NCBI GenBank assembly: GCA_964036045.1
Contig: OZ038395.1
Coordinates: 3,932,410-3,996,409, forward strand
Length of the DNA stretch: 64,000 bases
Direction of reading: 5' to 3'
Origin: Eutreptiella sp. 'Long Island Sound 2002'
Lineage: Eukaryota > Euglenozoa > Euglenophyceae > Eutreptiales > Eutreptiaceae
The notes under the pieces are model-generated. The model searched no databases. It saw only the letters and a list, made by a program, of their open reading frames with translations, and had not been told where the DNA came from. This document shows, one piece after another, positions 3,415 through 63,415 of the stretch. A program made the position numbers and the translations under genes. The stretch's first letter is position 1, and every line of letters begins with the position of its first letter.

Positions 3415-3424
3415 ATGTTCAGCA

Positions 3425-3458
<34 letters not shown>

Positions 3459-34900: not shown

Positions 34901-35403
34901 GCCACACGGCCGGGCGACCAGCCCCCCGCGAGTGTTGGCCCCTGAGACTCGCCCGGGCGTCTGGTTCCATGACCTGCCTGCGCTGGCGACCCTCCGAGGC
35001 AGTGTCGTGGCGGTGGATGCCGGGGCCACGCAGGCGGGTATGGCCATGGCCGGGGTCGTCCAGAGCGGGCCTGGGGAGTACCAGGCCCAGGTCGCCTCAG
35101 GAGTGGGCACCTCCCAGGGGGGGGAGGCGATGGCCCTCCTCTCGTATGCCCGCCGGCTGGCGACACAGCCGGGGGTTTACTGGCTGGTGCCGGACTCGGA
35201 GGCAGCAGTGGGGGCCCTCCGCACGTACCAGGAAGGAGGGCACTGCGGAGATGGCATCCACCACCTCTACGCCACTGTCCTGGGGGGGCAGCGCCTCTCC
35301 CCCAGGTCTGCCATCAATGTGGTGACCACACCATCGCACTAGATCACGGACCTCAACGTCCGTGTGGACGCAGCGACGCGGGAGCCGCAGGAGGTAGACC
35401 TCA
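31974..35403 (+). pseudogene. LINE-type polyprotein fragment: RT and RNase H
   Basis: One frame runs from the array into 35403, broken by three in-frame stops: TAG 32040-32042, TGA 32274-32276 and TAG 35340-35342. Counting from Met 32382, RT motifs appear in order: GITISSHVSKLE (about 73-84), motif A D141-LSKFFD, motif B GTPQGT (195-200), motif C WVDDT with D239-D240. The C-terminal RNase H has D879 (VVAVDAG), E915 (GGEAM) and D938 (VPDSEA). The last stop falls directly after the His of TTPSH, before NVRVD, which would supply the final Asp. No endonuclease or 3' UTR is present, so the copy is cut at both ends, where 10-bp satellite begins. It replicates by target-primed reverse transcription if intact; here it is presumably dead. 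The sense strand is the CCACCACGAA strand of both neighbouring arrays. RT and RNase H identification is firm; the clade is not determined. Confidence 0.85.
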
Positions 35404-36038
35404 CCACGAACCACCACGAACCACCACGAACCACCACGAATCACCAGGGACCACAACGGACCACCACAGACCACCACGAACCACCACGAACCACGACGAG
35501 CCACCACGAACCACCACGAACCACCACGAACCACCACGAACCACCACGAATCTCCATGAACCACCACGAACCACCAGGGACCATAACGGACCACCACAGA
35601 CCTCCACGAATCACCACGACCCACCACGAACCACCACGAACCACCACCAACCACCACGAACCACCACGAACCACCACGAAATACCAGGGACCACCACGAA
35701 CCACCAGTGACCACCACGAACCACCAGGAACCGCCACGAACCACCACGAACCACCACGAACCGCCACGAACCACCACGAACCACCACGAACCACCAAGAA
35801 CCACCACGAACCACCACGAACCACCACGAACCACCACGAACCACCACGGACCACGACGAACCAACACGAACTACCACGAACCACCAGGGACCACCACGAA
35901 CCACCATGGACCACCACGCACCACCACGAACCACCACGAACCACCACGAACCACCACCAACCGCCACGAACCACCACGAACCGCCACGAACCACCACGAA
36001 CCACCACAAACCACAAGGAACCACCACCAACCACCACG
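35404..36038 (+). repeat. 10-bp satellite array B, (CCACCACGAA)n
   Basis: About 64 units in the same orientation as array A. It starts directly after the truncated LINE RNase H and ends directly against the truncated RNase H of the minus-strand YR element. Confidence 0.97.
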
Positions 36039-36044
36039 CGCGCG

Positions 36045-37803
36045 CAGCGACACCATTTGTGCCCCCGCCACTTGCGAATCGGTCACCAGAACCAAAAACC
36101 GCCAACCCAGCCGCTCGGCCAGACGCACCGCCCAACACAGCCCCGACAGCTCCGCACTCTGCTGGGTATGTCGAGTGGGCGGGATAACCACGGACGACTT
36201 CGTGTTTACAAGGCATAAAAATACCCGCCCGATACCGGAACACGTCCAAAGCCGCATCAACAAACATGGTGGTGAACGCATGGCGGCCAAGCGCCACCGG
36301 GTGATCCAAAGCACACTTCAGGGACCACCTCAGGGTACCAGGCGGAGACCAGGATTCCATAGCGAATACTATCGCGGCGGCCAACCCGTGCAGCACCTTA
36401 AGAGGGACCGGCTGCCCAACAACTCCCCACCTCTGCCAGCAGTAAGCCCCGGACCAAAATGGGCCCATGCCACGACGTGGCCTCACATGCCACTGAATAA
36501 AGCCTAACACCTTATTCAAGTGACGGGGGTGCGGGTGGGCCGCTGTTGCCAGACGCAGCCATTGCGCAAACATATGCAAATACGCGCGCGGGTGGGACCA
36601 AACGCACCGCGTTTGCGTATCAATATGCTTCCCCCAAAACAAAATGCGCGTCGTAGGCCCCAAAACCGACTTAGGGGACACCAAAAACCCTGCAGCCTTC
36701 AATGCCTCAACCACCCGCCGGGTGGCCTCCCGCAGCTCCGCCGGACACCCACCCAGCAATAGGAAATCATCCAAATAATGGAAGATGACCATATGCGGCG
36801 GGACAATCCCCTCTATCACCTTTTGCAAGGCCAATTGGCACAGCAGCGGGGAAAATTTCCAGCCAAACGGCATGCGACGCATGCGGTACACGACCCGCGC
36901 CCCCCCTCCCGGCCGAAAACAAAACCGAAACGCCCTCAACGCCTTCGGTGGCAAAACAAACGACCAAAAGGCGTTTTTCAGATCGATGTGCGTGCAAAAC
37001 AGGGGCTCACGCGGCGGCCACGCACTGAGGCGATCCGCCATGTTTTCCCAGCTGCACAATGAAAAACGCGCAGGGCGGGGCATGGTGTCGTTGAAGTCCA
37101 CTAAGTGGAAAATCACGGACACCTTCTCCGAGGACTTCGGAATGATGAAGGGCCAGCATGTGGTAGGTCGGCCAGGGTCGTCCACCACCCTCTCAACCAG
37201 CCCCCCCACCTCAAGGGAGCGCAACATGGGTTCCACCAGCGGGTCCGTCTCCCGCCTGTGGAGGACCGCCGGTGGGGGGGAGACCTCCGGCGCAAACACC
37301 GCGGCCGACCGCTCCACATCCACCCCCTCCCCCACAACCTCATCCCACGGTGCGTCTGAGATGTGGTACGTCCCAATATCACCCAACCCCCGGGCCGCCA
37401 CTTCGGAATCAAGCGCCTGCATGACTGGCTTGGGCGAGGTGGAGACATGCATCAGGCTAGCCCAACCCTCCGGCGGAAGCTCGCCAAGCACCCGCAGAAA
37501 AATGGGCACCGTATCAGGGAGCCGGAAATCTTCGGCCGTGAAAGCTCTCATCAAAAAGAGGTGCAACCTCTGCATCAGGAGGCGGACGCTGATTTTGAGG
37601 GCGACTTCCGCGTGTCTGGGCCTGCCTCGATTTGTGTGTTGGCAGTGGGGATAGCCCAAATCCAGGGCACGGTCCCCGTGGACGGCCAGCGGCGCTGGAT
37701 CCATTGGGCCAGGCAGAGCATGGCCAGTCCCAGGTGGTAGCCCTCCCGCCCTGAGGTGATTTGGGCCCGGGCGCGGGCTGGGGGTTCGTCGACGGACAGC
37801 CAC
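36045..37803 (-). pseudogene. YR retroelement RT and RNase H, truncated
   Basis: The minus-strand frame encodes a DIRS/Ngaro/LTR-type RT: WPFIIPKSSEKVSVIFHLVDFN (split here as WPFIIPK and IFHLVDFN), motif A HIDLKNAF with D274, RMPFGWKFSPLLCQLAL as motif B, and the YLDD box at 343-346. RNase H follows with D516 (FVDAALDVFRYRAGIF). A one-base shift near 36190-36220 moves the frame to QQSAELSGLCWAVR (catalytic Glu) and LVTDSQVAG (catalytic Asp). The domain then stops at array B, losing its NxADxPSR end. Upstream of about residue 65 a different frame (LFLLLLRELSSKLAWLS) looks more protein-like, so the N-terminus may also be frameshifted, around 37600-37650. It lies downstream of YR and gag on the same strand. 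RT and RNase H are certain; the element is defective. Confidence 0.85.
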
Positions 37804-38076
37804 GCGAGCTTACTGGACAACTCGCGAAGGAGGAGCAGGAAAAGAGGTTCCCCTACCCCCCCAGAAAACAACGGCGGCCGCGGGCCATCGGGCTGCACCA
37901 CGAGGCCCAGCGGGGACTGACCACGAACATTCCGGGGGCCCAGCATACCACCTGGCCGGAGGACGCTCGGGTCGGCGGGAGATCCACCGTTGTGATTGTT
38001 TGGAGGTCCCGGAGGCCCTCCGGCCAGCTGGTCGCTTAACCCCTGTCCCCGTCGAGCCCCGCGGGCCGCGTGGCCC

Positions 38077-39704
38077 TCAGAGGGAGATTGGGTTGCGTTG
38101 GTCCTCTCCGCGTGGCCTGAACTTACACGCCACTCCGCCGGTCTTTGCCGCTCCGCCTGCCGACTCTCCCAACGGGCGAGACATTTCGGGCCCCTCCCCC
38201 CGCCGAGGCACCTTTTGGGGACGATCAGCGGGGCTCGCACGCCCGTCGGCGCCACGCCCACGTAGACGGCTCCCGGCGGCAGGACGACTCCCGACGGAGC
38301 CACCACCCAGCACCACCTTCGTGCTACCCGGTACAGGGCCGTGGACACGTACGGCACTGCTCACAACAGGCAACCTCCACCGCTTTGGTGCCTGTTTAGC
38401 GCCCTTGTTCCCACCCGCTGACTTGGAAGACGAGGCGCCAGCCGGTAACCGCTTGCGCTTGGCCCCGCCGGCACGTGGCCGGGGCCCTGCAGCTGATTTG
38501 CCGCCGACGACAAATGTGCCGCCTTCGCGCTTACCCAGGTCGGGCCCCGGTGCAGACCCTCCACCACTGCGCTTCGTGGCTGTCGTCGCGGACCCGGCTA
38601 GCTCGAGGGACGATCCGGACGACTCCGAGGAGGACTCCGGGGAATTGGAGTCGGAGGACTCGTCGTCTGCACCCCCACCGGCTCCTTTCGGCCCCCCCTC
38701 TCTGGTAGTGGATGGGACACCCAATCCTTTAACCAGTTCCTTGATGGCCACAGACTCCTTCGCGTACATGGCCCCTGGCGAGAGGTCCTGAATCGGAACC
38801 TCCAACACAGAGCCAGCACAGTCCCCAGCATCCGCAACAGATAAAAGAAGGGGCCCCACCACCTCCGGATCGGTGTACCTGGTGGCGAACTCAAGCGCCG
38901 TTTGGAGGCGGCGCCAATGCCCCCACCATACGAGGAACCGGATGTGGGGAACCCTTTGGTAGCACGCCGCATAGCCACCTCGCCGGAACGCGTGCCATCG
39001 CAGATGGCTCCAACGCGAGTCTCGCACCATGTCCTTAACGGCCTTCTCAAGCCCGGACGCCCCTCGCTCCGCGAACGGCTCTGCCGAATCCGCCGAAGCA
39101 CCCACCAGAGCCAGCAGGTAAGCAGCCCAGCGGCCCAGAGGGCGTCTCTCTTCCGACACCCCCCCACTTTGGTAGCGGTGAAGGAAGCCATGCCGGACGT
39201 TTGCAAGCCCCGAGGCGTAATAGTGGCCGCCTCAGACACTCGCAGCCAGAGCACGTAGTTGAGACAACCGAGGCCCAGCGCGACGCGCTGCTCACGGGTG
39301 CTTGCCGCCTGGGCCAAGAAGGACAGCGCGGGGGGACTAAAATAGGGCTGGTGCCCCGATGACAGTCCCCCTTTCACCAGCCTCCAATGGATGCGGAGGA
39401 CGGTGGGTGGCATGATGCCAAGGTCCTCCGCTCCCCGTACCGCTGACACCACGTTGCGGAGTGTCGACCGTGCCACCCCTGATGACACTTTGGCTGACAG
39501 GTACTCTGAAAGGCACGTAGATGGTCCAGTAGGCAGCGAACGCTCGTCCCCGAAATCGGCGACCGCGAACAAGGAACCCTGATAGCGCCGGGTAGTCCTG
39601 GACGCCCAGCTGCGCATGGCGACGGTCGCCGGGTCGCTCGGGCGATCACCGGAACGGACTGCCGCCCACGCCAGCGCCGCCACAGGAAAGCGTCCTGCAG
39701 CCAT
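38077..39704 (-). pseudogene. YR retroelement tyrosine recombinase, one frameshift
   Basis: The recombinase would integrate a circular DNA intermediate. The N-terminal frame (from 39704) has a SAM-like core-binding region (ASRTTRRYQGSL ... LRNVVSAVRGAEDL) and the first catalytic Arg, R155, in LWLRVSEA. At a G7 run (C7 on plus, 39159-39165) the reading must change frame by one base to enter the second frame, which holds H-x2-R (WHAFRRGGYA), a His in WWGHWRRLQ, and the nucleophile Tyr in ATRYTD. All five catalytic positions are therefore present across the break. An unusually long tail of about 200 residues follows, Ser-, Gly- and Lys/Arg-rich, with an NLS-like AKRKRL. It ends at TGA 38077-38079. 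The frame is continuous with gag upstream except for gag's stop. YR lies before RT, unlike most DIRS-like elements. Confidence 0.85.
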
Positions 39705-39797
39705 GGTCCCCGGCTCGCCGACGGCTCGCCCGACCCCCCCCTCGGGCCTGACTCCAGAGGAACCTTGTGCCCAACCCCAGGTCCCCGTCCCTGGAGC

Positions 39798-45812: not shown

Positions 45813-46996
45813 CTAGTTGTCGCACCAGGGCCAGACCATGAAGCCCTGGGGCAGGACAGGTGCCACTGCCCTTAGGCCTTCGGCGACGGCTGTGGCCTCC
45901 ATGACTGATGTGCTGCAGTACTGCGCGCGAACACGCGCCCGCAGCCGGTGCAGAATTCTGCCATCGCATGTGGCAACAACCGCACCAAGTCCCCAGACGC
46001 ACTGCTCGGGGTTGGTACTGCAATCTGCCACCAGGAGGATCACGGGAATCGGCGACTCGATGGGCACACGGCGCACGTTCCAGGTTGACCCTTTGCCATT
46101 GTATAGGCGGAAGCGCCAATCGCGCGACCGGCACCACTGCGCAGAGACGCCGAAGTCGCTGGTCTTGCCTGGTGCCACGTGCTCGCTGTCGGTGCGTGAG
46201 AATGCTCGTTGCAGCTCCCTGAGACATGCCTCCCGTGCGGTGTCATGAGGCGAGTGGGCCACTTTCCAGAGTTCCGTGACGGCCATCCTCCATGCCTTTT
46301 CTGCAGGGCATGGGACCCCGAGGCGTCCTTGGCTGGGGCTGCCGTATACAAACTCTCGTGGGGTGCGTTTGGGCAGCTGCAAGGCCATGCGGCAACAGCG
46401 AGCTACCGTTGACGTGGCCGCTGACGCGGGGCGTTTGAGCTGCTGCTCTCGTACGAGGTCTCTGGGCCAGTCAACCTGCTTCCGGAAGCTCCACCTCATG
46501 GTGAGCATGCCGTCGAGGATCCCTCTGAGCATCCGAAGGGCCACTGGGTGTTGTGCCAGCCGGGACATGACCCTTCTGCCATGGTTCCTGATTTCTTTCT
46601 CGTCCTCGTTAACGGTGGCAGCGAGGTGGATATTGCCGCCGACCATTTTCACGTACTGCCGGCTCGCTGCGCTTTTGATGACCTGCCCGTCGATGTGGAC
46701 AACGCCTTCCACCCGTATGCCTCCCCGCCGGGAAGGTGCTTGGTGGATGAGATCAAACTTGTCCGGGTTGCACTTCCCGTTGAGCCGCTGGATCTCCGCA
46801 ACACACTGTGACGCGCTGCTCTGGATGGCCGACATGGTTGGTGCCAGCACGATCGTGTCATCGACGACACACAGGATCGTCATGTCCACTGGCCCTGAGA
46901 TAGTGTCAACTGTGACAGGGGGGCACTGCTGCTTTATAGCTGTGGCCAACATGGCAGTGTACAGCACGTACCAGAAGGGGTCCAGCCCCCCCCCCC
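45813..46996 (-). pseudogene. LINE part 2: RT palm and first half of RNase H
   Basis: After the C11/G11 run the frame reads GGGLDPFWYVLYTAMLA (rest of RT motif B), then motif C ILCVVDDTIVLAP with both Asp residues, and KCNPDKFDLIH as motif D. A thumb-like helical region follows (LRGILDGMLTMRWSFRKQVDWP). RNase H starts with LLVADCST (first Asp) and SVMEATAVAEGL (Glu), then VWPWCDN, where a TAG at 45813-45815 interrupts. Codons upstream of the G-run in this frame are not real coding sequence. Confidence 0.8.
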
Positions 46997-49900
46997 TGAA
47001 TGACGCCGCTGGCGATGGCGTAGGCAGCTGTGAGGCCCTGCACTGTGACCACAAAGGCAAGCAGGCGCTGGTACAGCTTGGCGGACTGGTGGACGGCCCA
47101 GGACCACACAGGGTCTTGGTCCGCCTGCGTGCGCAGGGCTTGGAGGTCCGTCTGGCCATAGGCGTTGCTCTGGTTCAGCTTGAGCATGCACAGGGACTGG
47201 CCTGTGCGGACTCGCTGTATTTGCAGCACGTATATGAGCCGCCGTACATGCGAAGGGCTGAGCCCGCGAATTATGGCGAATTGTGTTTTGAGAAACACGT
47301 CTGGTGTAAGCAGGAGTTGGCCTCTGCGGAACTGGAAGCGTTGCCGGTGACGGAGAACTCCAGACTCCACTATGATCGGCCGTGTGCATTTGTTGAGTAC
47401 GACACCAGGGCACTTCGTGATGGGCAGATGCGGTGCATGCAGTACGTCCTTGGGCAGCTCGTCAAGGTCGCAGACTAGGAGGTGAGCAACATGTCGCAGG
47501 GCCCACAACCCCATGCATGCCGCCAGACCTGGCGCGTACCAGTCCATCGTTGCCGTGGGCGAGGTCTGGTCCGTGGCGGTCAGGATGGTTTCGCTCACAG
47601 ACGGCGCATACCCTACGCCGTGGCGTATCTGGCCTGCGGACACGCGCATTGCTTGCGCCGCTGCTGCCTGCTGCACCTTTGTGCGCCGTTCCGCATGCAG
47701 CGTGGTGGGCCCCAGATGGGACAGCACCCAGTGGCGGGGGACAGGAGCTGGCACAGGAGGGTGACGGAGGGATGCTTCATGCCTGACAGCGTCCCGCAGT
47801 TCGTCGCCGCTAACGACGCACTGTTTTCTGGAGTCCCAGATGCGGCTGATGGACGAGAAGGGCACCGCTTTTTTCAGCCTCAGTACGGCTGCAGCTTCGG
47901 CATGCATGCTGGCCCGCATGAGCAGTCCCCTTTCTTTCACCATGGACAGCCATGCGCGCTCATGTTTGGCCGCGTTCCAGGCAGTTCCGTCCGTGGCGGG
48001 GTGCTGCGCCAGACTGGCGTCGATGCGGTCCATGAATTTCTGTGTCTTCAACCGGTCCGCCGTCTCCTGGCCTGCACGGCGGTGTGCTTCCACTGCCCCC
48101 ATGACATCTCTGTACCGTGCCAGCCATTCCGCCGGCCGGCCCTCAAACTGGCTGAACGCTTCAAGGAGATCGCTGAACGCTGTCTTCTCGGCCGCCTTCC
48201 ACGGTCCGACGCTGACGGGTCTGTAGGCGGTGCTGCTGCCCCCTGCTGCAGTGGCCTCAAAGCACACTGCGAGAATGATCATGGGGTGAATGGTCACGAG
48301 CCCCGCGGCATATGTCACCCTGGCGACAGTTGTCCTTGCACAGGACACCAACGCCCAGTCCTTATGCAGCCTGCGCTCTGTCCCATTGCAGACTGGAGCG
48401 ATTTTGGACGTCACCATGAAAATCACTGTGTCTGCATGTTCGGGGACGAAGCGGTTCCAGTCCCCAAGATACACTTCATATGCGTCAGGTTCACGCGCCC
48501 GGAGGAGGCGGATGGCATGCAGGACCGCCTTGTACTGTCCAGACTGGCTGCGGTGTGGCATATGCAGGATGTACACGCGGCACAGCTGCCCGTGCACTGT
48601 CAATGCAACCACCATGACGTGTCTGGTGTCCATGATCGTGCGTGCGTGGCCGCATGTCTGGCCCTGCATCAGGAGGAGAATCCCCTGCCCTGCCGACTGG
48701 TGTCCGGACCGACGCCTGAAGTATCCGGGCACATGTCGTTCGTACGCTTTTTCAGCCCACGTCTCACAGACGGCCGCTACTGTGACCGCTGCCTGTTGAA
48801 CTTTGCTGGCTACGACGCGCCATTTATCTTCCGTGAGGCTCTGTGCGTTGACGAACAGTGCTTGCAGCTTGTTGGTTTTGGCGATCCCCAGCGAGGGGAC
48901 CATGCGCTGCCCTTCCCACGGGCCTGGGCCATGATGCGTGGGCGCCGTCGAGCTGGGGCCATACTGTGGTATGATAACCAGCTGGCCGCCTGCCGGTGTG
49001 CTCTGCACGCTGCACCAACATACGCTGTACCTCATGGTATCCACCTCGATGTTCAGCTGCCACTGATCAATCCACGAGCGGCACCACTGATGCACGTAGG
49101 AGGCTGGGTCTGGGCGCTCCCTGTGTTTGCGGGTGTATACTCCGCCGTCAGGTAGAATCCATCGTTGCTTCCATGCCGCCGTTAGCATCACTCTCAGGAA
49201 CTCTTCGCAACTCATTCGCCATCTGGCCGGACTGACCGGGTGTGGCACGGGGTATGTGAGCAGCCCGACGTGCTCAACGAGCGCTGCACCTGCTGTGAGG
49301 TGGAACCTGGTGGACCCGCACAGGTATTCACCGCAGTAGACTCTCTGCGGGGTGACTGCCAGAGACGGCTGTGATTTCCACTGCACGGTCCTCTGTCCGC
49401 AGCGATCGTATTCCCCAGGCGGCGCGGCAGACGGGGGGCCTGCTGTTGCGGTGCTGCACTGCCACTCTGCATCCACTGCCGCCGCTGCCTGCTCGTAGTG
49501 CTGCCATGTGGGGTCCAACTGTCTAAGGCGAAGGCGGACAGGGTCGGTGTCACTGGTGTTGAGCACCCTCTTCAGCTCTGGGCCATGGGGGCACTTCAGG
49601 CCCGGTTTGGCTCTGGCCGTCTTGGAGAATGTGTGCACTATCTTGTGGCTGGGCACTGGTTCGGCCGGTTCCGTGGTGCATGGCACGATGTACTCTACGG
49701 TGTGCTGCTGTTTGGCGCGCTTGGGCACCGCTCCGCGCACCCATTTCTTGGTTGTGCCTGTGGGTACCCATAGCCCATCGTGCAGCACAGCTCCGGCGAC
49801 CATACTGGGCCATTCGCTGCGGCGCTGAAGCCGCTCCATGTGCATGTGCACCGTCGTACCGGGTCGCTCTGCGTCCCCCGGGCCCCATAAGGATATAAAC

Positions 49901-50289: not shown

Positions 50290-53200
50290 CCCGGTCCGTG
50301 GTGGTCCGTTGTGGTCCGTGGTGGTTCTTGGTGGTTCCTGGTGGTTCCTGGTGGTTCGTGGTGGTTCGTGGTGGTTCGTGGTGGTTCGTGGTGGTTCGTG
50401 GTGGTTCCTGGTGGTTCGTGGTGGTTCGTGGTGGTCCGTGGTGGTCCGTTGTGGTCCGTGGTGGTTCGTGGTGGTTCTTGGCGGTTGGTGGTGGTTCGTG
50501 GTGGTTCGTGGTGGTTCCTGGTATTTCGTGGTGGTTCGTGGTGCTTCGTGATGGTTCGTGGTGGTTCGTGGTGGTTTGTAGTGGTCCGTGGTGGTCTGTT
50601 GTGGTCCGTGGTGGTTCGTGGTGGTTCGTGGTGGTTCGTGGTGGTGCGTGGTGGTTCGTGGTGGTTCGTGGTGGTTCGTGCTTGTTCGTGGTGGTTTGTG
50701 GTGATTTGTGGTGGTTCGTGGTGGTTCGTGGTGGTCTGTGGTGGTCCGTTGTGGTCCCTGGTGGTTCGTGGTGGTTTTTGGTGGTTCGTAGTGATTCGTG
50801 GTGGTTCGTGGTGGTTCGTGGTGGTTCGTGGTGGTTCGTGGTGGTCCGTGGTGGTTCGTGGTGGTTTGTGGTGGTTTGTAGTGGTCCGTGGTGGTCTGTT
50901 GTGGTCCGTGGTGGTTCGTGGTGGTTCGTGGTGGTGCGTGGTGGTTCGTGGTGGTTCGTGGTGGTTCGTGCTTGTTCGTGGTGGTTTGTGGTGATTTGTG
51001 GTGGTTCGTGGTGGTTCGTGGTGGTCTGTGGTGGTCCGTTGTGGTCCCTGGTGGTTCGTGGTGGTTTGTGGTGGTTCGTAGTGATTCGTGGTGGTTCGTG
51101 GTGGTTCGTGGTGGCTCGTCGTGGTTCGTGGTGGTTCGTGGTGGTTCGTGGTGGTTCGTGGTGGTTCGTGGTGGTTTGTGGTGGTTCGTGGTGGTCCTTG
51201 GCGGTTGGTGGTGGTTCGTGGTGGTTCGTGGTGGTTCCTGGTATTTCGTGGTGGTTCGTGGTGCTTCGTGATGGTACGTGGTGGTTCGTGGTGGTTCGTG
51301 GTGGTTCCTGGTGGTTCGTGGTGGTTCGTGGTGGTTCGTGGTGGTTCGTGGTGGTTCGTGGTGGTCCGTGGTGGTTCGTGGTGGTTTGTGGTGGTTTGTA
51401 GTGGTCCGTGGTGGTCTGTTGTGGTCCGTGGTGGTTTGTGGTGGTTCGTGGTGGTTCGTGGTGGTGCGTGGTGGTTCGTGGTGGTTCGTGGTGGTTCGTG
51501 CTTGTTCGTGGTGGTTTGTGGTGATTTGTGGTGGTTCGTGGTGGTTCGTGGTGGTCTGTGGTGGTCCGTTGTGGTCCCTGGTGGTTCGTGGTGGTTTGTG
51601 GTGGTTCGTAGTGATTCGTGGTGGTTCGTGGTGGTTCGTGGTGGCTCGTCGTGGTTCGTGGTGGTTCGTGGTGGTTCGTGGTGGTTCGTGGTGGTTCGTG
51701 GTGGTTTGTGGTGGTTCGTGGTGGTCCGTGGTGGTCCGTGGTGGTCCGTTGTGGTCCGTGGTGGTTCGTGGTGGTTCTTGGCGGTTCGTGGTGGTTCGTG
51801 GTGGTTCGTGGTGGTTCCTGGTATTTCGTGGTGGTTCGTGGTGCTTCGTGATGGTTCGTGGTGGTTCGTGGTGGTTCGTGGTGGTTTCTGGTGGTTCGTG
51901 GTGGTTCGTGGTGGTTCGTGTTGTTTCCCGGTGGTCCGTGGTGGTTCGTGGTGGTTTGTGGTGGTTTGTAGTGGTCCGTGGTGGTCTGTTGTGGTCCGTG
52001 GTGGTTCGTGGTGGTTCGTGATGGTTCTTGGTGGTGCGTGGTGGTTCGTGGTGGTTCGTGCTTGTTCGTGGTGGTTTGTGGTGATTTGTGGTGGTTCGTG
52101 GTGGTTCGTGGTGGTCTGTGGTGGTCCGTTGTGGTCCCTGGTGGTTCGTGGTGGTTTGTGGTGGTTCGTAGGGATTCGTGGTGGTTCGTGGTGGTTCGTG
52201 GTGGCTCGTCGTGGTTCGTGGTGGTTCGTGGTGGTTCGTGGTGGTTTGTGGTGGTTTGTGGTGGTTCGTGGTGGTTCCTGGTGGTTAGTGGTGGGTCGTG
52301 GTGGTTCGCCGTGGTTCGTGGTGGTTCGTGGTGGTTCGTGGTGGTTCGTGGTGGTTCTTGGTATTTCGTGGTGGTTCGTGGTGCTTCGTGATGGTTCGTG
52401 GTGGTTCGTGGTGGTTCGTGGTGGTTCCTGGTGGTTCGTGGTGGTTCGTGGTGGTCCGTGGTGGTTCGTGGTGGTTTGTGGTGGTTTGTAGTGGTCCGTG
52501 GTGGTCTGTTGTGGTCCGTGGTGGTTCGTGGTGGTTCGTGATGGTTCTTGGTGGTGCGTGGTGGTTCGTGGTGGTTCGTGCTTGTTCGTGGTGGTTTGTG
52601 GTGATTTGTGGTGGTTTGTGGTGATTCGTGGTGGTCTGTGGTGGTCCGTTGTGGTCCCTGGTGGTTCGTGGTGGTTTGTGGTGGTTCGTAGTGATTCGTG
52701 GTGGTTCGTGGTGGTTCGTGGTGGCTCGTCGTGGTTCGTGGTGGTTCGTGGTGGTTTGTGGTGGTTTGTGGTGGTTCGTTGTTTTTCTTGGTGGTTAGTG
52801 GTGGGTTGTGGTGGTTCGTGGTGGTTCGTGGTGGTTTGTGGTGGTTCGTGGTGGTTCGTGGTGGTTCGTGGTTGTTCGTGGTGGTTCGTGGTGGTTCGTG
52901 GTGGTTCGTGGTGGTTCGTGGTGGTTCGTGGTGGTTCGTGGTTGTTCGTGGTTGTTCGTGGTGGTTCGTGGTGGTTCGTGGTTGTTCGTGGTGGTTCATG
53001 GTGGTTCGTGGTGGTTCGTGGAGGTCCCTGGTGGTTCGTGGTGGTTCGTGGTGGTTCGTGGTGGTTCTTGGTGGTTCGTGGTGATTCGTGGTGGTTTGTG
53101 GTGGTTCGTGGTGGTCCGTGGTGGTCCGTGGTGGTTCTTGGCGGTCGGTGGTGGTTCGTGGTGGTTCGTGTTGGTTCCTGGTGGTTCGTGGTGGTTGGTG

Positions 53201-56200
53201 GTGGTTCGTGGTGGTTCGTGGTGGTTCCTGATGGTTCGTGGTGGTTCGTGGTGGTTCGTGGTGGTTCGTAGTGGTTCGTGGTGGTCCATGGTGGTTCGTG
53301 GTGGTTCGTAGTGGTTTGTGGTGGTTTGTAGTGGTCCGTGGTGGTCCGTTGTGGTCCGTGGTGGTTCGTGGTGGTTCGTGGTGGTTCGTGGTGGTTCGTG
53401 GTGGTTCGTGGTGGTTCCTGATGGTTCGTGGTGGTTCGTGGTGGTTCGTGGTGGTTCGTGGTTGTTCGTGGTGGTTTGTGGTGATTCGTGGTGGTTCGTG
53501 GTGGTCTGTGGTGGTCCGTTGTGGTCCCTGGTGGTTCGTGCTGGTTCGTGGTGGTTCGTGGTGGTCCGTGGTGGTTCCTGGTGGTTTGTGGTGGTTTGTG
53601 GTGGTTCGTGGTGGTTCATGGTGGTTCGTGGTGGTTCGTGGTGGTTCGTGGTGGTTCGTGGTGGTTCCTGGTGGTTCGTGGTGGTTCGTGGTGGTTCGTG
53701 GTTGTTCGTGGTGGTTCGTGGTGGTTCGTGGTGGTTCGTGGTGGTCCGTGGTGGTCCCTGGTGGTTCGTGCTGGTTCGTGGTGGTTCGTGCTTGTTCGTG
53801 GTGGTTTGTGGTGATTTGTGGTGGTTCGTGGTGGTTCGTGGTGGTCTGTGGTGGTCCGTTGTGGTCCCTGGTGGTTCGTGGTGGTTTGTGGTGGTTCGTA
53901 GGGATTCGTGGTGGTTCGTGGTGGTTCGCGGTGGCTCGTCGTGGTTCGTGGTGGTTCGTGGTGGTTCGTGGTGGTTTGTGGTGGTTTGTGGTGGTTCGTG
54001 GTGGTTCCTGGTGGTTAGTGGTGGGTCGTGGTGGTTCGTGGTGGTTCGTGGTGGTTCGTGGTGGTTCGTGGTGGTTCGTGGTGGTTCTGGGTATTTCGTG
54101 GTGGTTCGTGGTGCTTCGTGATGGTTCGTGGTGGTTCGTGGTGGTTCGTGGTGGTTCCTGGTGGTTCGTGGTGGTTCGTGGTGGTTCGTGGTGGTTCTTG
54201 GTGGTTCGTGGTGATTCGTGGTGGTTTGTGGTGGTTCGTGGTGGTCCGTGGTGGTCCGTGGTGGTTCTTGGCGGTCGGTGGTGGTTCGTGGTGGTTCGTG
54301 TTGGTTCCTGGTGGTTCGTGGTGGTTGGTGGTGGTTCGTGGTGGTTCGTGGTGGTTCCTGATGGTTCGTGGTGGTTCGTGGTGGTTCGTGGTGGTTCGTA
54401 GTGGTTCGTGGTGGTCCATGGTGGTTCGTGGTGGTTCGTGGTGGTTTGTGGTGGTTTGTAGTGGTCCGTGGTGGTCCGTTGTGGTCCGTGGTGGTTCGTG
54501 GTGGTTCGTGGTGGTTCGTGGTGGTTCGTGGTGGTTCGTGGTGGTTCCTGATGGTTCGTGGTGGTTCGTGGTGGTTCGTGGTTGTTCGTGGTGGTTTGTG
54601 GTGATTCGTGGTGGTTCGTGGTGGTCTGTGGTGGTCCGTTGTGGTCCCTGGTGGTTCGTGCTGGTTCGTGGTGGTTCGTGGTGGTTCGTGGTGGTCCGTG
54701 GTGGTTCCTGGTGGTTTGTGGTGGTTTGTGGTGGTTCGTGGTGGTTCCTGATGGTTCGTGGTGGTTCGTGGTGGTTCGTGGTGGTTCGTAGTGGTTCGTG
54801 GTGGTCCATGGTGGTTCGTGGTGGTTCGTGGTGGTTCGTGGTGGTTCGTGGTGGTTCGTGGTGGTTCGTGGTGGTTCCTGGTGGTTCGTGGTGGTTCGTG
54901 GTGGTTCGTGGTTGTTCGTGGTGGTTCGTGGTGGTTCGTGGTGGTTTGTGGTGGTTCGTGGTGGTTCGTGGCGGTTCGTGGTGGTTCGTGGTGGTTCGTA
55001 GTGATTCGTGGTGGTTCGTGGTGGTTCGTGGTGGCTCGTCGTGGTTCGTGGTGGTTCGTGGTGGTTCGTGGTGGTTCGTGGTGGTTCGTGGTGGTTTGTG
55101 GTGGTTCGTGGTGGTCCGTGGTGGTCCGTGGTGGTCCGTTGTGGTCCGTGGTGGTTCGTGGTGGTTCTTGGCGGTTCGTGGTGGTTCGTGGTGGTTCGTG
55201 GTGGTTCCTGGTATTTCGTGGTGGTTCGTGGTGCTTCGTGATGGTTCGTGGTGGTTCGTGGTGGTTCGTGGTGGTTTCTGGTGGTTCGTGGTGGTTCGTG
55301 GTGGTTCGTGTTGTTTCCCGGTGGTCCGTGGTGGTTCGTGGTGGTTTGTGGTGGTTCGTGGTGGTTCGTGGTGGTTCGTGTTGTTTCCCGGTGGTCCGTG
55401 GTGGTTCGTGGTGGTTTGTGGTGGTTCGTAGTGGTCCGTGGTGGTCTGTTGTGGTCCGTGGTGGTTCGTGGTGGTTCGTGATGGTTCTTGGTGGTGCGTG
55501 GTGGTTCGTGGTGGTCTGTGGTGGTCCGTTGTGGTCCCTGGTGGTTCGTGGTGGTTTGTGGTGGTTCGTAGGGATTCGTGGTGGTTCGTGGTGGTTCGTG
55601 GTGGCTCGTCGTGGTTCGTGGTGGTTCGTGGTGGTTCGTGGTGGTTTGTGGTGGTTTGTGGTGGTTCGTGGTGGTTCCTGGTGGTTAGTGGTGGGTCGTG
55701 GTGGTTCGTGGTGGTTCGTGGTGGTTCGTGGTGGTTCGTGGTGGTTCGTGGTGGTTCTTGGTATTTCGTGGTGGTTCATGGTGCTTCGTGATGGTTCGTG
55801 GTGGTTCGTGGTGGTTCGTGGTGGTTCCTGGTGGTTCGTGGTGGTTCGTGGTGGTCCGTGGTGGTTCGTGGTGGTTTGTGGTGGTTTGTAGTGGTCCGTG
55901 GTGGTCTGTTGTGGTCCGTGGTGGTTCGTGGTGGTTCGTGATGGTTCTTGGTGGTGCGTGGTGGTTCGTGGTGGTTCGTGCTTGTTCGTGGTGGTTTGTG
56001 GTGATTTGTGGTGGTTTGTGGTGATTCGTGGTGGTCTGTGGTGGTCCGTTGTGGTCCCTGGTGGTTCGTGGTGGTTTGTGGTGGTTCGTAGTGATTCGTG
56101 GTGGTTCGTGGTGGTTCGTGGTGGCTCGTCGTGGTTCGTGGTGGTTCGTGGTGGTTTGTGGTGGTTTGTGGTGGTTCGTTGTGTTTCCTGGTGGTTAGTG

Positions 56201-59200
56201 GTGGGTTGTGGTGGTTCGTGGTGGTTCGTGGTGGTTTGTGGTGGTTCGTGGTGGTTCGTGGTGGTTCGTGGTTGTTCGTGGTGGTTCGTGGTGGTTCGTG
56301 GTGGTTCGTGGTGGTTCGTGGTGGTTCGTGGTGGTTCGTGGTTGTTCGTGGTTGTTCGTGGTGGTTCGTGGTGGTTCGTGGTTGTTCGTGGTGGTTCGTG
56401 GTGGTTCGTGGTGGTTCGTGGAGGTCCCTGGTGGTTCGTGGTGGTTCGTGGTGGTTCGTGGTGGTTCTTGGTGGTTCGTGGTGATTCGTGGTGGTTTGTG
56501 GTGGTTCGTGGTGGTCCGTGGTGGTCCGTGGTGGTTCTTGGCGGTCGGTGGTGGTTCGTGGTGGTTCGTGTTGGTTCCTGGTGGTTCGTGGTGGTTGGTG
56601 GTGGTTCGTGGTGGTTCGTGGTGGTTCCTGATGGTTCGTGGTGGTTCGTGGTGGTTCGTGGTGGTTCGTAGTGGTTCGTGGTGGTCCATGGTGGTTCGTG
56701 GTGGTTCGTAGTGGTTTGTGGTGGTTTGTAGTGGTCCGTGGTGGTCCGTTGTGGTCCGTGGTGGTTCGTGGTGGTTCGTGGTGGTTCGTGGTGGTTCGTG
56801 GTGGTTCGTGGTGGTTCCTGATGGTTCGTGGTGGTTCGTGGTGGTTCGTGGTGGTTCGTGGTTGTTCGTGGTGGTTTGTGGTGATTCGTGGTGGTTCGTG
56901 GTGGTCCGTGGTGGTCCGTTGTGGTCCCTGGTGGTTCGTGCTGGTTCGTGGTGGTTCGTGGTGGTCCGTGGTGGTTCCTGGTGGTTTGTGGTGGTTTGTG
57001 GTGGTTCGTGGTGGTTCATGGTGGTTCGTGGTGGTTCGTGGTGGTTCGTGGTGGTTCGTGGTGGTTCCTGGTGGTTCGTGGTGGTTCGTGGTGGTTCGTG
57101 GTTGTTCGTGGTGGTTCGTGGTGGTTCGTGGTGGTTCGTGGTGGTGCGTGGTGGTTCGTGGTGGTTCGTGGCGGTTCGTGGTGGTTCGTGGTGGTTCGTA
57201 GTGGTTCGTGGTGGTCCATGGTGGTTCGTGGTGGTTCGTGGTGGTTTGTGGTGGTTTGTAGTGGTTCGTGGTGGTTTGTGGTGATTCGTGGTTGTTCGTG
57301 GTGGTTCGTGGTGGTTCGTGGTGGTTCGTGGTGGTTCGTGGTGGTTCGTGGTGGTTCGTGGTGGTTCTTGGTGGTTCGTGGTGATTCGTGGTGGTTTGTG
57401 GTGGTTCGTGGTGGTCCGTGGTGGTCCGTGGTGGTTCTTGGCGGTCGGTGGTGGTTCGTGGTGGTTCGTGTTGGTTCCTGGTGGTTCGTGGTGGTTGGTG
57501 GTGGTTCGTGGTGGTTCGTGGTGGTTCCTGATGGTTCGTGGTGGTTCGTGGTGGTTCGTGGTGGTTCGTAGTGGTTCGTGGTGGTCCATGGTGGTTCGTG
57601 GTGGTTCGTGGTGGTTTGTGGTGGTTTGTAGTGGTCCGTGGTGGTCCGTTGTGGTCCGTGGTGGTTCGTGGTGGTTCGTGGTGGTTCGTGGTGGTTCGTG
57701 GTGGTTCGTGGTGGTTCCTGATGGTTCGTGGTGGTTCGTGGTGGTTCGTGGTTGTTCGTGGTGGTTTGTGGTGATTCGTGGTGGTTCGTGGTGGTCTGTG
57801 GTGGTCCGTTGTGGTCCCTGGTGGTTCGTGCTGGTTCGTGGTGGTTCGTGGTGGTTCGTGGTGGTCCGTGGTGGTTCCTGGTGGTTTGTGGTGGTTTGTG
57901 GTGGTTCGTGGTGGTTCCTGATGGTTCGTGGTGGTTCGTGGTGGTTCGTGGTGGTTCGTAGTGGTTCGTGGTGGTCCATGGTGGTTCGTGGTGGTTCGTG
58001 GTGGTTCGTGGTGGTTCGTGGTGGTTCGTGGTGGTTCGTGGTGGTTCGTGGTGGTTCCTGGTGGTTCGTGGTGGTTCGTGGTGGTTCGTGGTTGTTCGTG
58101 GTGGTTCGTGGTGGTTCGTGGTGGTTCGTGGTGGTGCGTGGTGGTTCGTGGTGGTTCGTGGCGGTTCGTGGTGGTTCGTGGTGGTTCGTAGTGGTTCGTG
58201 GTGGTCCATGGTGGTTCGTGGTGGTTCGTGGTGGTTTGTGGTGGTTTGTAGTGGTTCGTGGTGGTTTGTGGTGATTCGTGGTGGTTCGTGGTGGTCTGTG
58301 GTGGTCCGTTGTGGTCCCTGGTGGTTCGTGCTGGTTCGTGGTGGTTCGTGGTGGTTCGTGGTGGTTCGTGGTGGTTCGTGGTGGTTTGTGGTGGTTCCTG
58401 GTGGTCCGTGGTGGTCCGTGGTGGTTCTTGGCGGTCGGTGGTGGTTCGTGGTGGTTCGTGTTGGTTCCTGGTGGTTCGTGGTGGTTGGTGGTGGTTCGTG
58501 GTGGTTCGTGGTGGTTCCTGATGGTTCGTGGTGGTTTGTGGTGGTTCGTGGTGGTTCGTAGTGGTTCGTGGTGGTCCATGGTGGTTCGTGGTGGTTCGTG
58601 GTGGTTTGTGGTGGTTTGTAGTGGTCCGTGGTGGTCCGTTGTGGTCCGTGGTGGTTCGTGGTGGTTCGTGGTGGTTCGTGGTGGTTCGTGGTGGTTCGTG
58701 GTGGTTCCTGATGGTTCGTGGTGGTTCGTGGTGGTTCGTGGTTGTTCGTGGTGGTTTGTGGTGATTCGTGGTGGTTCGTGGTGGTCTGTGGTGGTCCGTT
58801 GTGGTCCCTGGTGGTTCGTGCTGGTTCGTGCTGGTTCGTGGTGGTTCGTGGTGGTCCGTGGTGGTTCCTGGTGGTTTGTGGTGGTTTGTGGTGGTTCGTG
58901 GTGGTTCATGGTGGTTCGTGGTGGTTCGTGGTGGTTCGTGGTGGTTCGTGGTGGTTCGTGGTGGTTCCTGGTGGTTCGTGGTGGTTCGTGGTTGTTCGTG
59001 GTGGTTCGTGGTGGTTCGTGGTGGTTCGTGGTGGTGCGTGGTGGTTCGTGGTGGTTCGTGGCGGTTCGTGGTGGTTCGTGGTGGTTCGTAGTGGTTCGTG
59101 GTGGTCCATGGTGGTTCGTGGTGGTTCGTGGTGGTTTGTGGTGGTTTGTAGTGGTTCGTGGTGGTTTGTGGTGATTCGTGGTGGTTCGTGGTGGTCTGTG

Positions 59201-59760
59201 GTGGTCCGTTGTGGTCCCTGGTGGTTCGTGCTGGTTCGTGGTGGTTCGTGGTGGTTCGTGGTGGTTCGTGGTGGTTCGTGGTGGTTCCTGATGGTTCGTG
59301 GTGGTTCGTGGTGGTTCGTGGTGGCTCGTGGTGGTTCCTGGTGGTTTGTGGTGGTTTGTGGTGGTTCGTGGTGGTTCATGGTGGTTCGTGGTGGTTCGTG
59401 GTGGTTCGTGGTGGTTCGTGGTGGTTCGTGGTGGTTCCTGGTGGTTCGTGGTGGTTCGTGGTGGTTCGTGGTGGTTCGTGGTGGTTCGTGGTGGTTCGTG
59501 GTGGTTCGTGGTGGTGCGTGGTGGTTCGTGGTGGTTCGTGGTGGTTCGTGGTGGTTCGTGGTGGTTCGTGGTGGTTCGTGGTGGTTCGTGGTGGTTCGTG
59601 GTGGTTCGTGGTGGTTCGTGGTGGTTCGTGGTGGTTCGTGGTGGTTCGTAGTGGTTCACGGTGGTTTGTGGTGGTTCGTGGCGGTTCGTGGCGGTTCGTG
59701 GTGGTTCGTGGTGGTTCGTGGTGGTTCGTGGTGGTTCCTGGCGGTTCGTGGTGGTTCGTG
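50290..59760 (-). repeat. 10-bp satellite array D, inverted, about 950 units
   Basis: A 9.5-kb array of GGTGGTTCGT on plus. It contains long near-identical blocks at spacings of about 3.4 kb (52498 against 55898 onward), 3.17 kb (54368 against 57538) and 0.99 kb (57538 against 58528), so it grew by segmental duplication of blocks. Every frame on both strands is open over hundreds of codons; none is called as a gene. The last 300 bp (about 59380-59650) are nearly pure consensus. Confidence 0.97.
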
Positions 59761-59761
59761 G

Positions 59762-60279
59762 CTACCGGGACGTGATGAGATCATGCACCCTGCACAATTA
59801 TTTTGCAACCGTATGGCTACCGGAAACTGATGAGATTATGAACAATTATTATGCACCCGTATGGCTACCGGAAACGGATGAGTTTATGCACCCTGCACAA
59901 TTATTATGCACCCGTATGGCTGCCGGAAACTGATGAGATTATGCACCCTGCATAATTATTATGCACCCGTATGGCTATCGGAAACTGATGAGATTATGCA
60001 CCCTGCATAATGATTATGCACCCGTATGGCTACCAGAGACTGATGAGATTATGCACCCTGCACAATTATTATGCACCCGTATGGCTACCGGAAACTGATG
60101 AGATTATGCACCCTGCAAAATTATGATGCACCCGTACGGCTACCGGAAACTGATGAGATTATGCACCCTGCACAATTATGATGCACCCGTATGGCTACCG
60201 GAAACTGATGAGATTATGCACCCTGCACAATTATTATGCACCCGTATGGCTACTGGAAACTGATGAGCTTATGCACCCT
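59762..60279 (-). repeat. 55-bp satellite, inverted, about 9.4 units
   Basis: Same unit as 5372-29940 in reverse orientation. It joins array D at GGCTACCGG (CCGGTAGCC in unit sense) and ends at ATGCACCCT where a 2,941-bp insert begins. One unit near 59825-59850 is shortened. Confidence 0.95.
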
Positions 60280-60293
60280 CCCTGTGTGCGCGC
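60280..60293 (+). repeat. Left terminal inverted repeat
   Basis: CCCTGTGTGCGCGC, pairing with 63207-63220 at 12 of 14 positions. Confidence 0.65.
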
Positions 60294-60643
60294 AATGGTG
60301 CATTTTTTCCATAGTGCGCGCAAACTTTGAAAAATATGACCTTTGTAGCGCGCCTATTGCGCGCGCTCCACCGCGCTATATTGTCCCGTTTTTCAAAACC
60401 TGAAAATGTTTCAAAACCATGCTTTTTCCAGTGTCCTGTGTTTCTCAAAAACCCCTTGTTGTTCAAAAACATTACCTGTTGCTCACCCATCCCAAGACAC
60501 ATGCATAAACACTTTCTGAAAGGTCTGAAAAGTGTGCAACACTACAGGTCCTCATGGGCAACAACAGCGTAGCGCGCGCAAAATATTTACAACGCGCGCT
60601 ATGGATCTTGCGGCGTGCGCTATACCAGGTATAGCGCGCACTA
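60294..60643. other. Non-coding part of insert with GCGCGC motifs
   Basis: Contains GCGCGC near 60320, 60352-60370 and 60575-60600, each usually next to TAG or CAA. On the minus strand CACTTTTCAG and CCTTTCAG near 60520-60535 look like 3' splice sites, and AACAGGTAATG near 60470 like a donor, so a short further exon may lie between them. I see no other coding sequence. Confidence 0.4.
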
Positions 60644-63062
60644 TCATCCAGTGATCTCCTTAATGCTTGTGACCACCACTTCGGACTCCCACTGCTTCTC
60701 CCATGCTGGTCTTTGGTCTTCTGCCCCGGCTGCAGCTGGGGCTGTGTCCCCTTCTTCTTGTGCACTTGGGTCGCCTTCTGGGGTTGCTCCTTCTGGTGCC
60801 TCTTCTTCTTTCGGGGCTGCTCCTTCTCCTTCTGTTGTCTCTCCTTCTTGTGGCGCGGCCGCTGGTGCCTCTTCTTCTTCTGGTTGGGCTGGTGCGTCTT
60901 CTTCTTGTGCAGCTGCTGCTGGGGCTGGTGCCCGCTGCAGCTGGTGCTTGTGCTTGTGCTGCAGCTTCGGCAGGTCCCTCGTCTTCTTGTTGGGGGGCTG
61001 GTCGCTGGGCTGGTGGGTCTCCTTGGGGCTGATTCTTCTTTGGGGTTGGTGGCTTTGACGGGGACATCCTCATGGTCTTTGGGTCGGGGTTGAGGTCCAC
61101 AATTTCATCGGGCTCGTACGTCTCCCACCACGACTGCCACTTGTCCAACTCCTCATACGCTTTGCTTTTGGCGGAGAACACCTAGCAGGTGGGCATGAAC
61201 TCCGACCAGTCGTCCTCTTCCACCTCCTCCTCCCCTTGTTGGCTCCCTTGTTGGCTGGGGCTCCACTGATCGTTGGGGATGATGACGGCCACGTGGTCCT
61301 GAGGGGCCCTCCTAGCCCCTGCTGACTTGATTTCGGCTCCTTCCACAATCATCGGCGCGATCGCAGTGGTGCAGTACATGATCCAATGAGGCTTGTAGCC
61401 GTCCTTGTAGGACCAATCTCGGCGCAGCATGAGCTCATCTCTTGCCAGCTTGTCCGCGTTGGCTTTGCTCTGCTGCTTGGCGGCCTTGGGAGCCGTACTG
61501 GGTGGGGTGGAACCGCACGGACCTCCTTGTTCTTGTGGCTGGTCTGGGACTGGGAGCGGCTGCTTCGGTGCTGGCTTTGATGCTACCTGCGGCTGCGGTG
61601 CCTTCTTCACGTTGGGGCCAGTCTTGTTTGCCTGGAAAGAGAAGCGCAGAGGCATAGCACGCGCAATACAGGGCATAGCACGCGCGACGAAATGCATAGC
61701 ACGAGCAATGACACCGATAGCGCGCGCTGCAGCATTACCTTTTCTGCTTTCTCCTCCTCTGCTTTCTTCCGTCTCTTCTCCTCCTCTTCCTTCTCCTTCT
61801 TCTTCCTCTTCTCTTCCTCTTCCTTCTCCTTCTTCTTCCTCTTTTCCTCCTCTTCCTTCTTCTTCTTCTTTGCTTCGTCCTCTTTCGTCTTGTTCTGTTC
61901 CGCTTGACGTTGGACTCTCTGCGCCGCTGCTGCCATCAGCTGCCGGTCGGCGGTCTTCTGGGCAAGGACCTTGCCAGGCGGGTGGGGGGGCTTAGCGGAG
62001 TGGGAGGCGGAGATGGCTGGTGGTAGGTGGCTGGTGGCTGGTGGCTCCTCGGTACGCTTCTTCTTCTGCCTTGGGGCTGGCACGGGTTCCGTCTCCGGCA
62101 TGGCAAAGGCGTCGGCCCAGTCCACCTCCAGCTCCTCCATCTGCCGCGTAGCCCGGGCCAGCACCGGGGAGGGGCCTTGCTCCTTCCGTCCGTCAAGCCA
62201 GTCGGCCGCATGCTTGGACTGCCCGGCAATGTCCGCGGGCACGCTGATCATCAACGGCCCTCTGCGGGATCCCAGGCACAGGAGCTGCTCGAAGCTGCCC
62301 ACCTACGTGAAAACAGGACAGACGGTGGGGCCGTAGCGCGCGCAAACGGTCAAATCGCGCGTGCTACAGCAAATGAAGCGCGCGCAACAATGTCGGCAGC
62401 GCGCGCAATGGCAAACATAGCGCGTACTTGTTGTTGTTGTTGTTGTGGTCTTTGCAGTTCCTGCTGGGCCATCTCCACCCGCTGCTGCTGCTGGAGCAGC
62501 TGCAGTGTTGCCTGCTGGACTGCTGCCTGCTGGTGGAGCTGCTGCTGTTGCTGCACTTGCTGCTGCTGCGGTTGCTCCTCGTCCTTGACCGCCGTGGTTT
62601 TGACTTTGGCGCCGGTTGCAAGTGCCCTTGCTGCACTGGCTCCTTTCATGGCTGACCCCCGCAGCAAACTGGCCCCCGCACTTCTCACCGAGGGACACTC
62701 GTTCTTGAAGGCCATTGCCCCCGCGTCCGTCGCATTGATAAAGCTCGGTGGGTCCTTGTTGAAGTAGAAGTGGTGGACGGTCTTTGCGGTGGCACCCGGA
62801 GGCGTGTGAGTCCGAACGTGACCCCGGGTGTGACGGCGTTGGCAGCCTCGGTCCTGCGACGCTTCTTCTCTGCTTCAGACACGGGGGCCCTTTTTTCCAA
62901 CTTGGCCCACGAAGACCGTTGGACGGCAGACCCTGAGCAAAAAAGCTCAACTAGGTCCGCCAAAAGGTCCTCGTTCTTCCACAAGGACCACCCATAGTGG
63001 GGGCCCAAAATGTTTGCAATCTTTCCTGACATTGACAACGTCACTTGCGGTGCCGGAAGCAT
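60644..63062 (-). CDS. Spliced gene of unknown function inside the insert
   Basis: Three exons are readable on the minus strand: 63062-62428, 62302-61739 and 61631-60644. The two introns between them are GT...AG and in phase 0. Exon 1 begins with MLPAPQVTLSMSGKIANIL after a TTTCAG acceptor, so an upstream exon may exist. It includes HHFYFNKDPPSFINATDAGA and a poly-Gln stretch of about 45 residues. Exon 2 includes GSFEQLLCLGSRRGPLMISV, ELEVDWADAFAMPE and a long Lys/Glu helix. Exon 3 has RRDWSYKDGYKPHWIMYCTT and an acidic Ala/Pro/Glu tail. Breaks: a one-base shift at C4 (62822-62825), TAG 61182-61184 followed by VFSAKSKAYEELDKWQSWW in frame, and a one-base shift at 60931-60933. The low-complexity and charged composition suggests a nuclear or scaffold-type protein. 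No enzyme motif is seen. Whether it serves the insert or is a captured host gene is open. Confidence 0.55.
61632..61738 (-). other. Intron, 107 bp, GT-AG, GCGCGC-containing
   Basis: Donor AAAAG/GTAATG, acceptor CTCTTTCCAG/GCAAAC. It holds several TAGCRCGCGC motifs. Splicing joins the Lys/Glu helix to ANKTGPNVKK in phase 0. Confidence 0.7.
62303..62427 (-). other. Intron, 125 bp, GT-AG, GCGCGC-containing
   Basis: Donor CAACAA/GTACGC, acceptor TTTTCACGTAG/GTGGGC. It carries at least four GCGCGC-type motifs. Splicing joins the poly-Gln end to VGSFEQLLCLG in phase 0. Confidence 0.75.
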
Positions 63063-63206
63063 CTGAAACTTTAGAGAAATAGGCGTTTTTGCCCTGCTTA
63101 TTAGGACATGGGGTTACAAACCCAAGACCCCGAGCCATAGGACGCGCTATGACCCGCGCGATGTCTTCGTAGTGCGCACTGAGCCATCGCGCGGCAATAC
63201 CGTGTA

Positions 63207-63220
63207 GCGCGCACGCAGCG
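63207..63220 (-). repeat. Right terminal inverted repeat
   Basis: GCGCGCACGCAGCG, the inverted partner of 60280-60293. A further GCGCGC-rich stretch lies just inside it (63137-63206). Confidence 0.65.
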
Positions 63221-63415
63221 CTGCACAATTATTATGCACCCGTATGGCTACCAGAACCTGATGGGATTATGCACCCTGCACAATTATTATGCACCCCTAT
63301 GGCTACCGGAAACTGATGAGATTATGCACCCTGCACAATTATTATGCACCCGTATGGCTGCCGGAAACTGATGAGATTATGCACCCTGCACAATTATTAT
63401 GCACCCGTATGGCTA
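63221..63415 (-). repeat. 55-bp satellite, inverted, about 3.5 units
   Basis: Resumes the satellite in phase with the part ending at 60279 and ends at ATGGCTA, again at the CCGGTAG/CC point of the unit. Confidence 0.95.

Follow-up and report, generated by a model that had tools for sequence, protein, structure and literature searches.

A decayed transposon copy in a Eutreptiella satellite array, assigned to a two-gene cut-and-paste family whose transposase is predicted to have a RAG1/Transib-like fold

We analyzed a 64,000-nucleotide stretch of the euglenid alga Eutreptiella sp. 'Long Island Sound 2002' (hereafter the window; C18:3932410-3996409 of a 2.28-Gb assembly), in which a 2941-bp insert (60280-63220) sits inside a single unit of a 55-bp satellite. 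The insert is very probably a decayed, non-autonomous copy of a cut-and-paste transposon family with two genes, called here open reading frame 1 (ORF1), whose product is predicted to have a RAG1/Transib-like fold, and ORF2, an accessory gene. This assignment stands on the ends of the element, its copy number, its 2-bp target duplications, its two genes, the selection on both and the fold predicted for ORF1.

The insert is bounded by CCCTGTGTGCGCGC (60280-60293) and GCGCGCACGCAGCG (63207-63220), inverted repeats that agree at 12 of 14 positions. The same left end recurs elsewhere: CCCTG opens all 20 other left ends inspected, exactly at base 60280, and when the insert was used as query, 30 of 53 rows among the 54 matches listed (best 40 of 1608 candidates scored; window itself excluded) start at its first base. 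The flanks of the 20 left ends differ, save for L004 and L051, which are the same place; those of L012 and L045 are the element's own sequence, i.e. nested or rearranged copies. Since right ends elsewhere mostly read CACGCAGGG or differ little from it, the last bases of the window insert have been altered; CCCTGCGTGCGCGC is found at both termini of many copies, with a 14/14 match. Genome-wide, the right-end pattern matches 240 + 262 times and the left-end pattern 220 + 212 times, against none for a reversed control pattern, and the paired ends of four full-size copies lie 5797-5860 bp apart.

An exact 2-bp target duplication flanks 18 of the 21 copies in which both ends were read, compared with 2.23 for shuffled partners. 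No duplication extends over 3 bp or more in these 21 copies, and none over 5 bp (0/21). Fragments and copies in tandem arrays were excluded from the count, as was L024, in which the left and the right end point in one direction and do not bound a single copy. The copies that have no matching duplication are C3:102968041, C3:124284833 and C19:37578634, the last counted as a miss although its right end was misplaced. Because ten different pairs are duplicated (AA, AC, CA, CT, GG, GT, TA, TC, TG and TT), the target sequence is free. A preliminary description, made from the letters of the window, had read the insert ends as inverted repeats at 12 of 14 positions, which recomputation reproduced; it had also supposed a DNA element family and proposed a genome search for such ends with 2-bp duplications, and that search returned hundreds of both ends, with copies at unrelated sites sharing exact limits.

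Some copies have had a further history. On C6 (G000:C6:92303040-92314422; L025, L027-L029, L034-L036 and L047), successive right ends of the element stand ~1.57-1.60 kb apart, with a near-identical flank after each; this array is an insertion that was turned into part of a tandem repeat unit. In the right flanks of L030, L040 and L041, palindromes that could form strong hairpins lie no more than 50 bp from the insertion point. A preference for hairpin targets, an idea that came from the same data, was dropped: 34 flanks against 827 far windows gave p = 0.045, driven by a few right flanks. The left end was not found in the viral contigs searched, nor was P0013 in the prokaryote genomes searched.

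Full copies carry two spliced genes, ORF1 and ORF2, that run in the same direction. ORF1 consists of exon 1 (MLPAPQVTL...KIPRRR), an intron and exon 2. Part of exon 2, used as query, gave at least 157 matches (best 150 of 4509 candidates scored), and a 493-amino-acid open frame without a stop is present in at least 28 of these rows, three of them confirmed by reading the sequence. ORF2 encodes, in order, a proline-rich start, a middle domain, and poly-Gln, Lys/Glu and acidic parts, with introns between. Ratios of nonsynonymous to synonymous polymorphism (pN/pS), calculated from fetched copies and omitting sequences with stops or indels, which favors low values, were 0.47 for ORF1 exon 2 (three of six matches used, the other three having stops), 0.52 for ORF1 exon 1 (27 sequences), and 0.40 (7 sequences), 0.43 (9) and 0.67 (15) for three parts of ORF2. 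Judged from these sequence comparisons, purifying selection has acted on both genes.

A second family, typified by P0048, has an ORF1 that is 37% identical to that of the window family. The best 86 of 8786 candidates in a search for it gave 87 rows of 94-100% identity, 65 without stops; the listing favors the best matches, and the listed copies, by this identity and openness, are very young. The element measures 6078 bp plus the last base in one copy, and its ends are CCCTAGTGACCCC..GGGGTCACTAGGG, with 228 + 224 genome matches to a 24-mer and none to a control. Nine of the first ten plus-then-minus adjacent end pairs on C1 show a 2-bp duplication (shuffled control, 1.68), and the tenth matches over 3 bp, not 2. 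In pairwise comparison, the two families resemble each other in exon 1 (E value 6e-9) and, at the same position, in the ORF2 middle domain (5e-5), and they have in common CCC..GGG ends, the two-gene plan and 2-bp duplications. That the middle domain is recognizable at such divergence makes ORF2 a standing part of the lineage. In our reading, the two families make up a divergent lineage, in this euglenid, of cut-and-paste transposons with the RAG1 fold. In the second family, the final part of ORF2 (L104:769-1353, plus strand) contains HKHPRDD..GDFRGGGFF..ERYATVAY, which by eye resembles 2-oxoglutarate/iron dioxygenases; it has no Pfam match, and its PDB sequence matches are weak and unrelated. 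TET/JBP dioxygenases are carried by some fungal DNA transposons, according to the available portion of Kojima 2025 (PMC12730594).

ORF1 is predicted to encode a DDE transposase whose RNase H fold is like that of RAG1 and Transib. It has conserved D, D and E residues in that order and a helical insertion ahead of the E, and RAG1 and Transib are the top structural matches of the predicted model, which is of the second-family protein. The hAT (Hermes) and P element transposases match this model less well than RAG1; the rows that rank lower than Hermes in the structural alignment are scattered and were set aside, and an earlier prediction from 25 sequences was poor (predicted local distance difference test score, pLDDT, 50). 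A viral structure library gave no match at E ≤ 0.001. At the level of sequence, the profile search against transposase families that had been proposed at the outset was run and gave no transposase match in Pfam or NCBIfam, nor did PDB sequence searches or Pfam on 86 ORF1-type members; PF02992 (Transposase_21) was matched nowhere in the genome, although control genomes were silent for it too. Stray weak matches went to unrelated families such as TFIIA and TPR_TTI1_C (in low-complexity parts), NblA (0.0011, 1/86) and COQ9 (0.12). Between the second D and the E, where 26 of 86 aligned rows hold both flanking motifs and could be tested, no row has both C(2)C and H(3-4)H: C(2)C occurs in 1/26 and H(3-4)H in 7/26, of which five are close copies; in each of the seven, the H(3-4)H lies 80-120 residues ahead of the E.

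There is an appreciable chance, which we nonetheless set below even, that these transposons belong, as strongly diverged members, to a lineage already named within the EnSpm-Mirage-Chapaev-Transib group (e.g. Plavaka, ESTA or Lanisha) and not to a separate one. The RAG1-like fold suits such a placement, as do two points in the available text of Kojima 2025 (PMC12730594), that duplications in this CMCT group are 2-5 bp (2 bp in PlavakaA, TA in ESTA) and that the tie of ESTA to RAG1 was likewise found by structure-aware comparison, with HHpred; the missing C(2)C and H(3-4)H motifs, CCC..GGG ends in place of the usual CA..TG, and duplications not restricted to TA argue the other way, as does the lack of a Pfam transposase match, although for PF02992 the control was equally silent. 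Plavaka, ESTA and Lanisha entered our comparison by description and not by sequence, so a distant place within one of them is possible; by that comparison, the element works like a RAG1/Transib-type cut-and-paste element and is assigned to no named family. Very nearly in balance, though we stop just short of asserting it, is the fuller proposal of an undescribed, superfamily-level RAG1-fold lineage, marked by CCC..GGG ends, 2-bp duplications of any sequence, the lack of a zinc-binding C2H2 site and a second gene that would be obligatory and would take the part of RAG2 or TnpA by reading family-specific motif arrays in the ends and introns. As to the word undescribed, already used in the preliminary description, no published description of the family came up in searches of the open-licence PubMed Central (PMC) literature, Repbase lying outside their scope, and to that extent nothing contradicts the word; the accessible part of a paper on viral insertions in Euglena reports transposases and recombinases as abundant genome-wide and does not describe the family there (PMC12455990).

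The window insert is an ordinary dead copy. Its minus-strand gene is broken, a fusion of ORF1 exon 1 to the second half of ORF2. L051, a 5063-bp copy on C11, matches the insert at its positions 3-395 and then 2534-5063, and L051 is itself short: seven of the eight other copies compared have 735-770 bp more of ORF1, and the remaining one carries still more (L053-L055, arranged otherwise, were omitted). The last ORF2 exon of the insert is disrupted twice, by a stop codon in frame (61182-61184) and by a break in the frame near 60.95 kb. Exon-1 matches are uninterrupted in 41/45 among fetched loci, some of which overlap. In P0030, an open frame of 376 amino acids, sequence of ORF1 exon 1 runs on into a part that looks by eye like a GIY-YIG nuclease, for which Pfam gave no confirmation. 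The features of the insert, in window coordinates, are as follows.

60278-60279, no strand: left copy of the CT target duplication; CT recurs at 63221-63222, and the satellite unit is otherwise contiguous
60280-60293, plus strand: left terminal inverted repeat, CCCTGTGTGCGCGC; copies at unrelated sites start exactly here
60294-60643, no strand: subterminal region on the ORF2 3' side with dispersed GCGCGC; 9 of the 18 GCGCGC of the insert lie in 60280-60642
60644-61631, minus strand: putative final ORF2 exon, which encodes the acidic C-terminal part; its frame is open at L051:3914-4897, in a different copy
61632-61738, minus strand: putative intron (GT-AG) with GCGCGC-type motifs
61739-62302, minus strand: putative ORF2 exon with a Lys/Glu-rich run; homologues include P0001-P0003 and P0006-P0008
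62303-62427, minus strand: putative intron (GT-AG) with 6 GCGCGC
62428-62825, minus strand: truncated ORF2 exon, end of the middle domain and poly-Gln, start deleted; other copies run past this point
62825-62826, no strand: internal deletion junction, from comparison with L051; ORF1 exon 1 and ORF2 meet here in different frames
62826-63062, minus strand: 5' part of ORF1 (transposase) exon 1, MLPAPQVTLSMSGK...EAANAVTP, with the ATG located
63063-63206, no strand: subterminal region on the ORF1 5' side; 96-98% identity to 39 other copies scored in the right-end search
63207-63220, minus strand: right terminal inverted repeat, CGCTGCGTGCGCGC read inward; the common family form is CCCTGCGTGCGCGC
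63221-63222, no strand: right copy of the CT duplication, paired with 60278-60279

The preliminary description had seen here a multi-exon spliced gene, with no recognizable transposase, on a possibly non-autonomous carrier of a host gene. The sequence is compatible with two GT-AG introns, but what they interrupt is a minus-strand fusion of two genes across a deletion, with a stop and a frame break. No transposase could be recognized because ORF1 is mostly deleted, and the loss of that gene also bears out the term non-autonomous. The host gene is another matter. Capture by a DNA transposon, as in Pack-type elements, would account for a low-complexity, spliced gene in which no transposase had been noted, yet the gene with Gln, Lys/Glu and acidic regions is the second gene of the element in many copies, and its middle domain is recognizable at the same position in the second family; we reject capture as very improbable, and ORF2 belongs to the element.

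The site of insertion can be read to the base. The satellite to the left of the insert terminates in ATGCACCCT and that to the right opens with CTGCACAATT. In the other, larger 55-bp array of the window, the unbroken junction ATGCACCCTGCACAATT is present 240 times; that array thus serves as the empty site and shows that CT is doubled at the insert. The in-phase break and the repeated CT had been given correctly at the start. The least likely of the alternatives, in which no insertion took place and an unrelated unique segment lies between two separate arrays, in phase by coincidence or by an assembly join, has in its favor that the evidence is that of the assembly, but is hardly credible given a junction that is satellite plus a 2-bp duplication and insert ends that coincide with those of the family at hundreds of other sites.

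We therefore return to the decayed transposon copy and to how such an element might move. A complete element, ~5.8 kb long with CCCTGCGTGCGCGC inverted ends and two spliced genes, would be excised at its terminal repeats by the transposase and joined to any target sequence with a 2-bp stagger, giving the 2-bp duplication. Family-specific motifs in the ends and introns would probably be bound by ORF2 and/or ORF1. Deletion has removed the greater part of ORF1 and the first half of ORF2 from the window copy, which would now be mobile solely via proteins from other copies. Catalysis, hairpin chemistry like that of RAG and Transib, and the roles of ORF2 and of the motifs are here inferred.

The motifs are distributed unevenly. 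In L051, 34 of 35 GCGCGC lie outside ~3751 bp of coding DNA, and in the second family none of 30 GTTGAAC/GTTCAAC falls in ~3864 bp of coding DNA, the coding limits being approximate in both. Each motif is uncommon in the other family (counts of 1 and 0), and all 18 GCGCGC of the window insert lie in its ends and introns. In plant CACTA elements, TnpA binds repeated subterminal motifs. By that analogy, the simplest reading is that the arrays are binding sites for the element's own proteins; their presence in introns and ends while being kept out of exons is an unusual arrangement.

Elsewhere in the window, 5372-31974 and 50293-60279 form a large inverted arrangement around a center filled with transposable elements: on one side, the 55-bp satellite is followed by a 10-bp array and, on the other, a 10-bp array by the 55-bp satellite, in opposite orientation. 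A reverse transcriptase (RVT_1, Pfam E value 4.5e-14) lies at 35611-39797 on the minus strand, apart from the insert, and an adjoining frame has a weak likeness to the N-terminal domain of tyrosine recombinases (0.093); this is possibly a DIRS-like element within the 10-bp array. Long open frames at 32277-35342 (plus strand) and 45813-47174 (minus strand), the second weakly reverse transcriptase-like (0.072), are probably further retroelements in that array. An Rfam scan of the window gave no matches. The 26-base euglenid spliced leader, a sequence that also stands in a paper dealing with Euglena longa and further euglenophytes (PMC6242988), has 1233 + 1347 exact genome matches, against none for a control.

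RAG1 assembles antibody genes, and vertebrate V(D)J recombination arose from a RAG1 transposase, whose mobile relatives are best known from animals. Fungal relatives of RAG1-type transposases have been reported as well (PMC12730594, available portion). A high-copy, two-gene euglenid lineage that has the same predicted fold, includes one very young family and lacks the zinc motifs taken as diagnostic of the group bears on the age and variety of the RAG1 fold. If the superfamily-level reading is true, RAG1-type recombinases extend deep into the euglenozoan branch, and elements that pair a transposase with a partner arose in euglenozoans too. The elements have multiplied recently, in an alga with hardly any descriptions of DNA transposons in the literature searched, and their ends and duplications are precise enough for direct testing.

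Among known groups, hAT and P elements both make 8-bp duplications. KDZ (Zisupton) elements also differ from ours, having 8-bp and not 2-bp duplications (PMC12730594, available portion). The CMCT group (EnSpm/CACTA, Mirage, Chapaev, Plavaka, ESTA and Lanisha) is closer, as its range of duplication lengths includes that found here, and ESTA is reported to have a RAG1-like transposase (PMC12730594, same portion). The accessory protein and repeated subterminal motifs of the present families resemble TnpA and its binding sites in plant CACTA elements. The families differ in lacking the zinc motifs, in ends that are not CA..TG, in a duplication of unrestricted sequence and in having no match to the CACTA Pfam family, for which the control genomes were silent as well. 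With Transib, RAG1 and RAG-like (ProtoRAG) elements, they share the predicted transposase fold, the order D, D, E and the helical insertion before the E, and with RAG1-RAG2 elements a second gene beside the transposase. They are set apart from these by duplications of 2 bp and not 5 bp (the length given for Transib in the available part of PMC4411706), by CCC..GGG ends, by the absence of C(2)C and H(3-4)H, by two genes that run in the same direction and by sequences in which no similarity to those elements is detectable; Pfam gave no kelch or PHD match to ORF2 pieces of either family.
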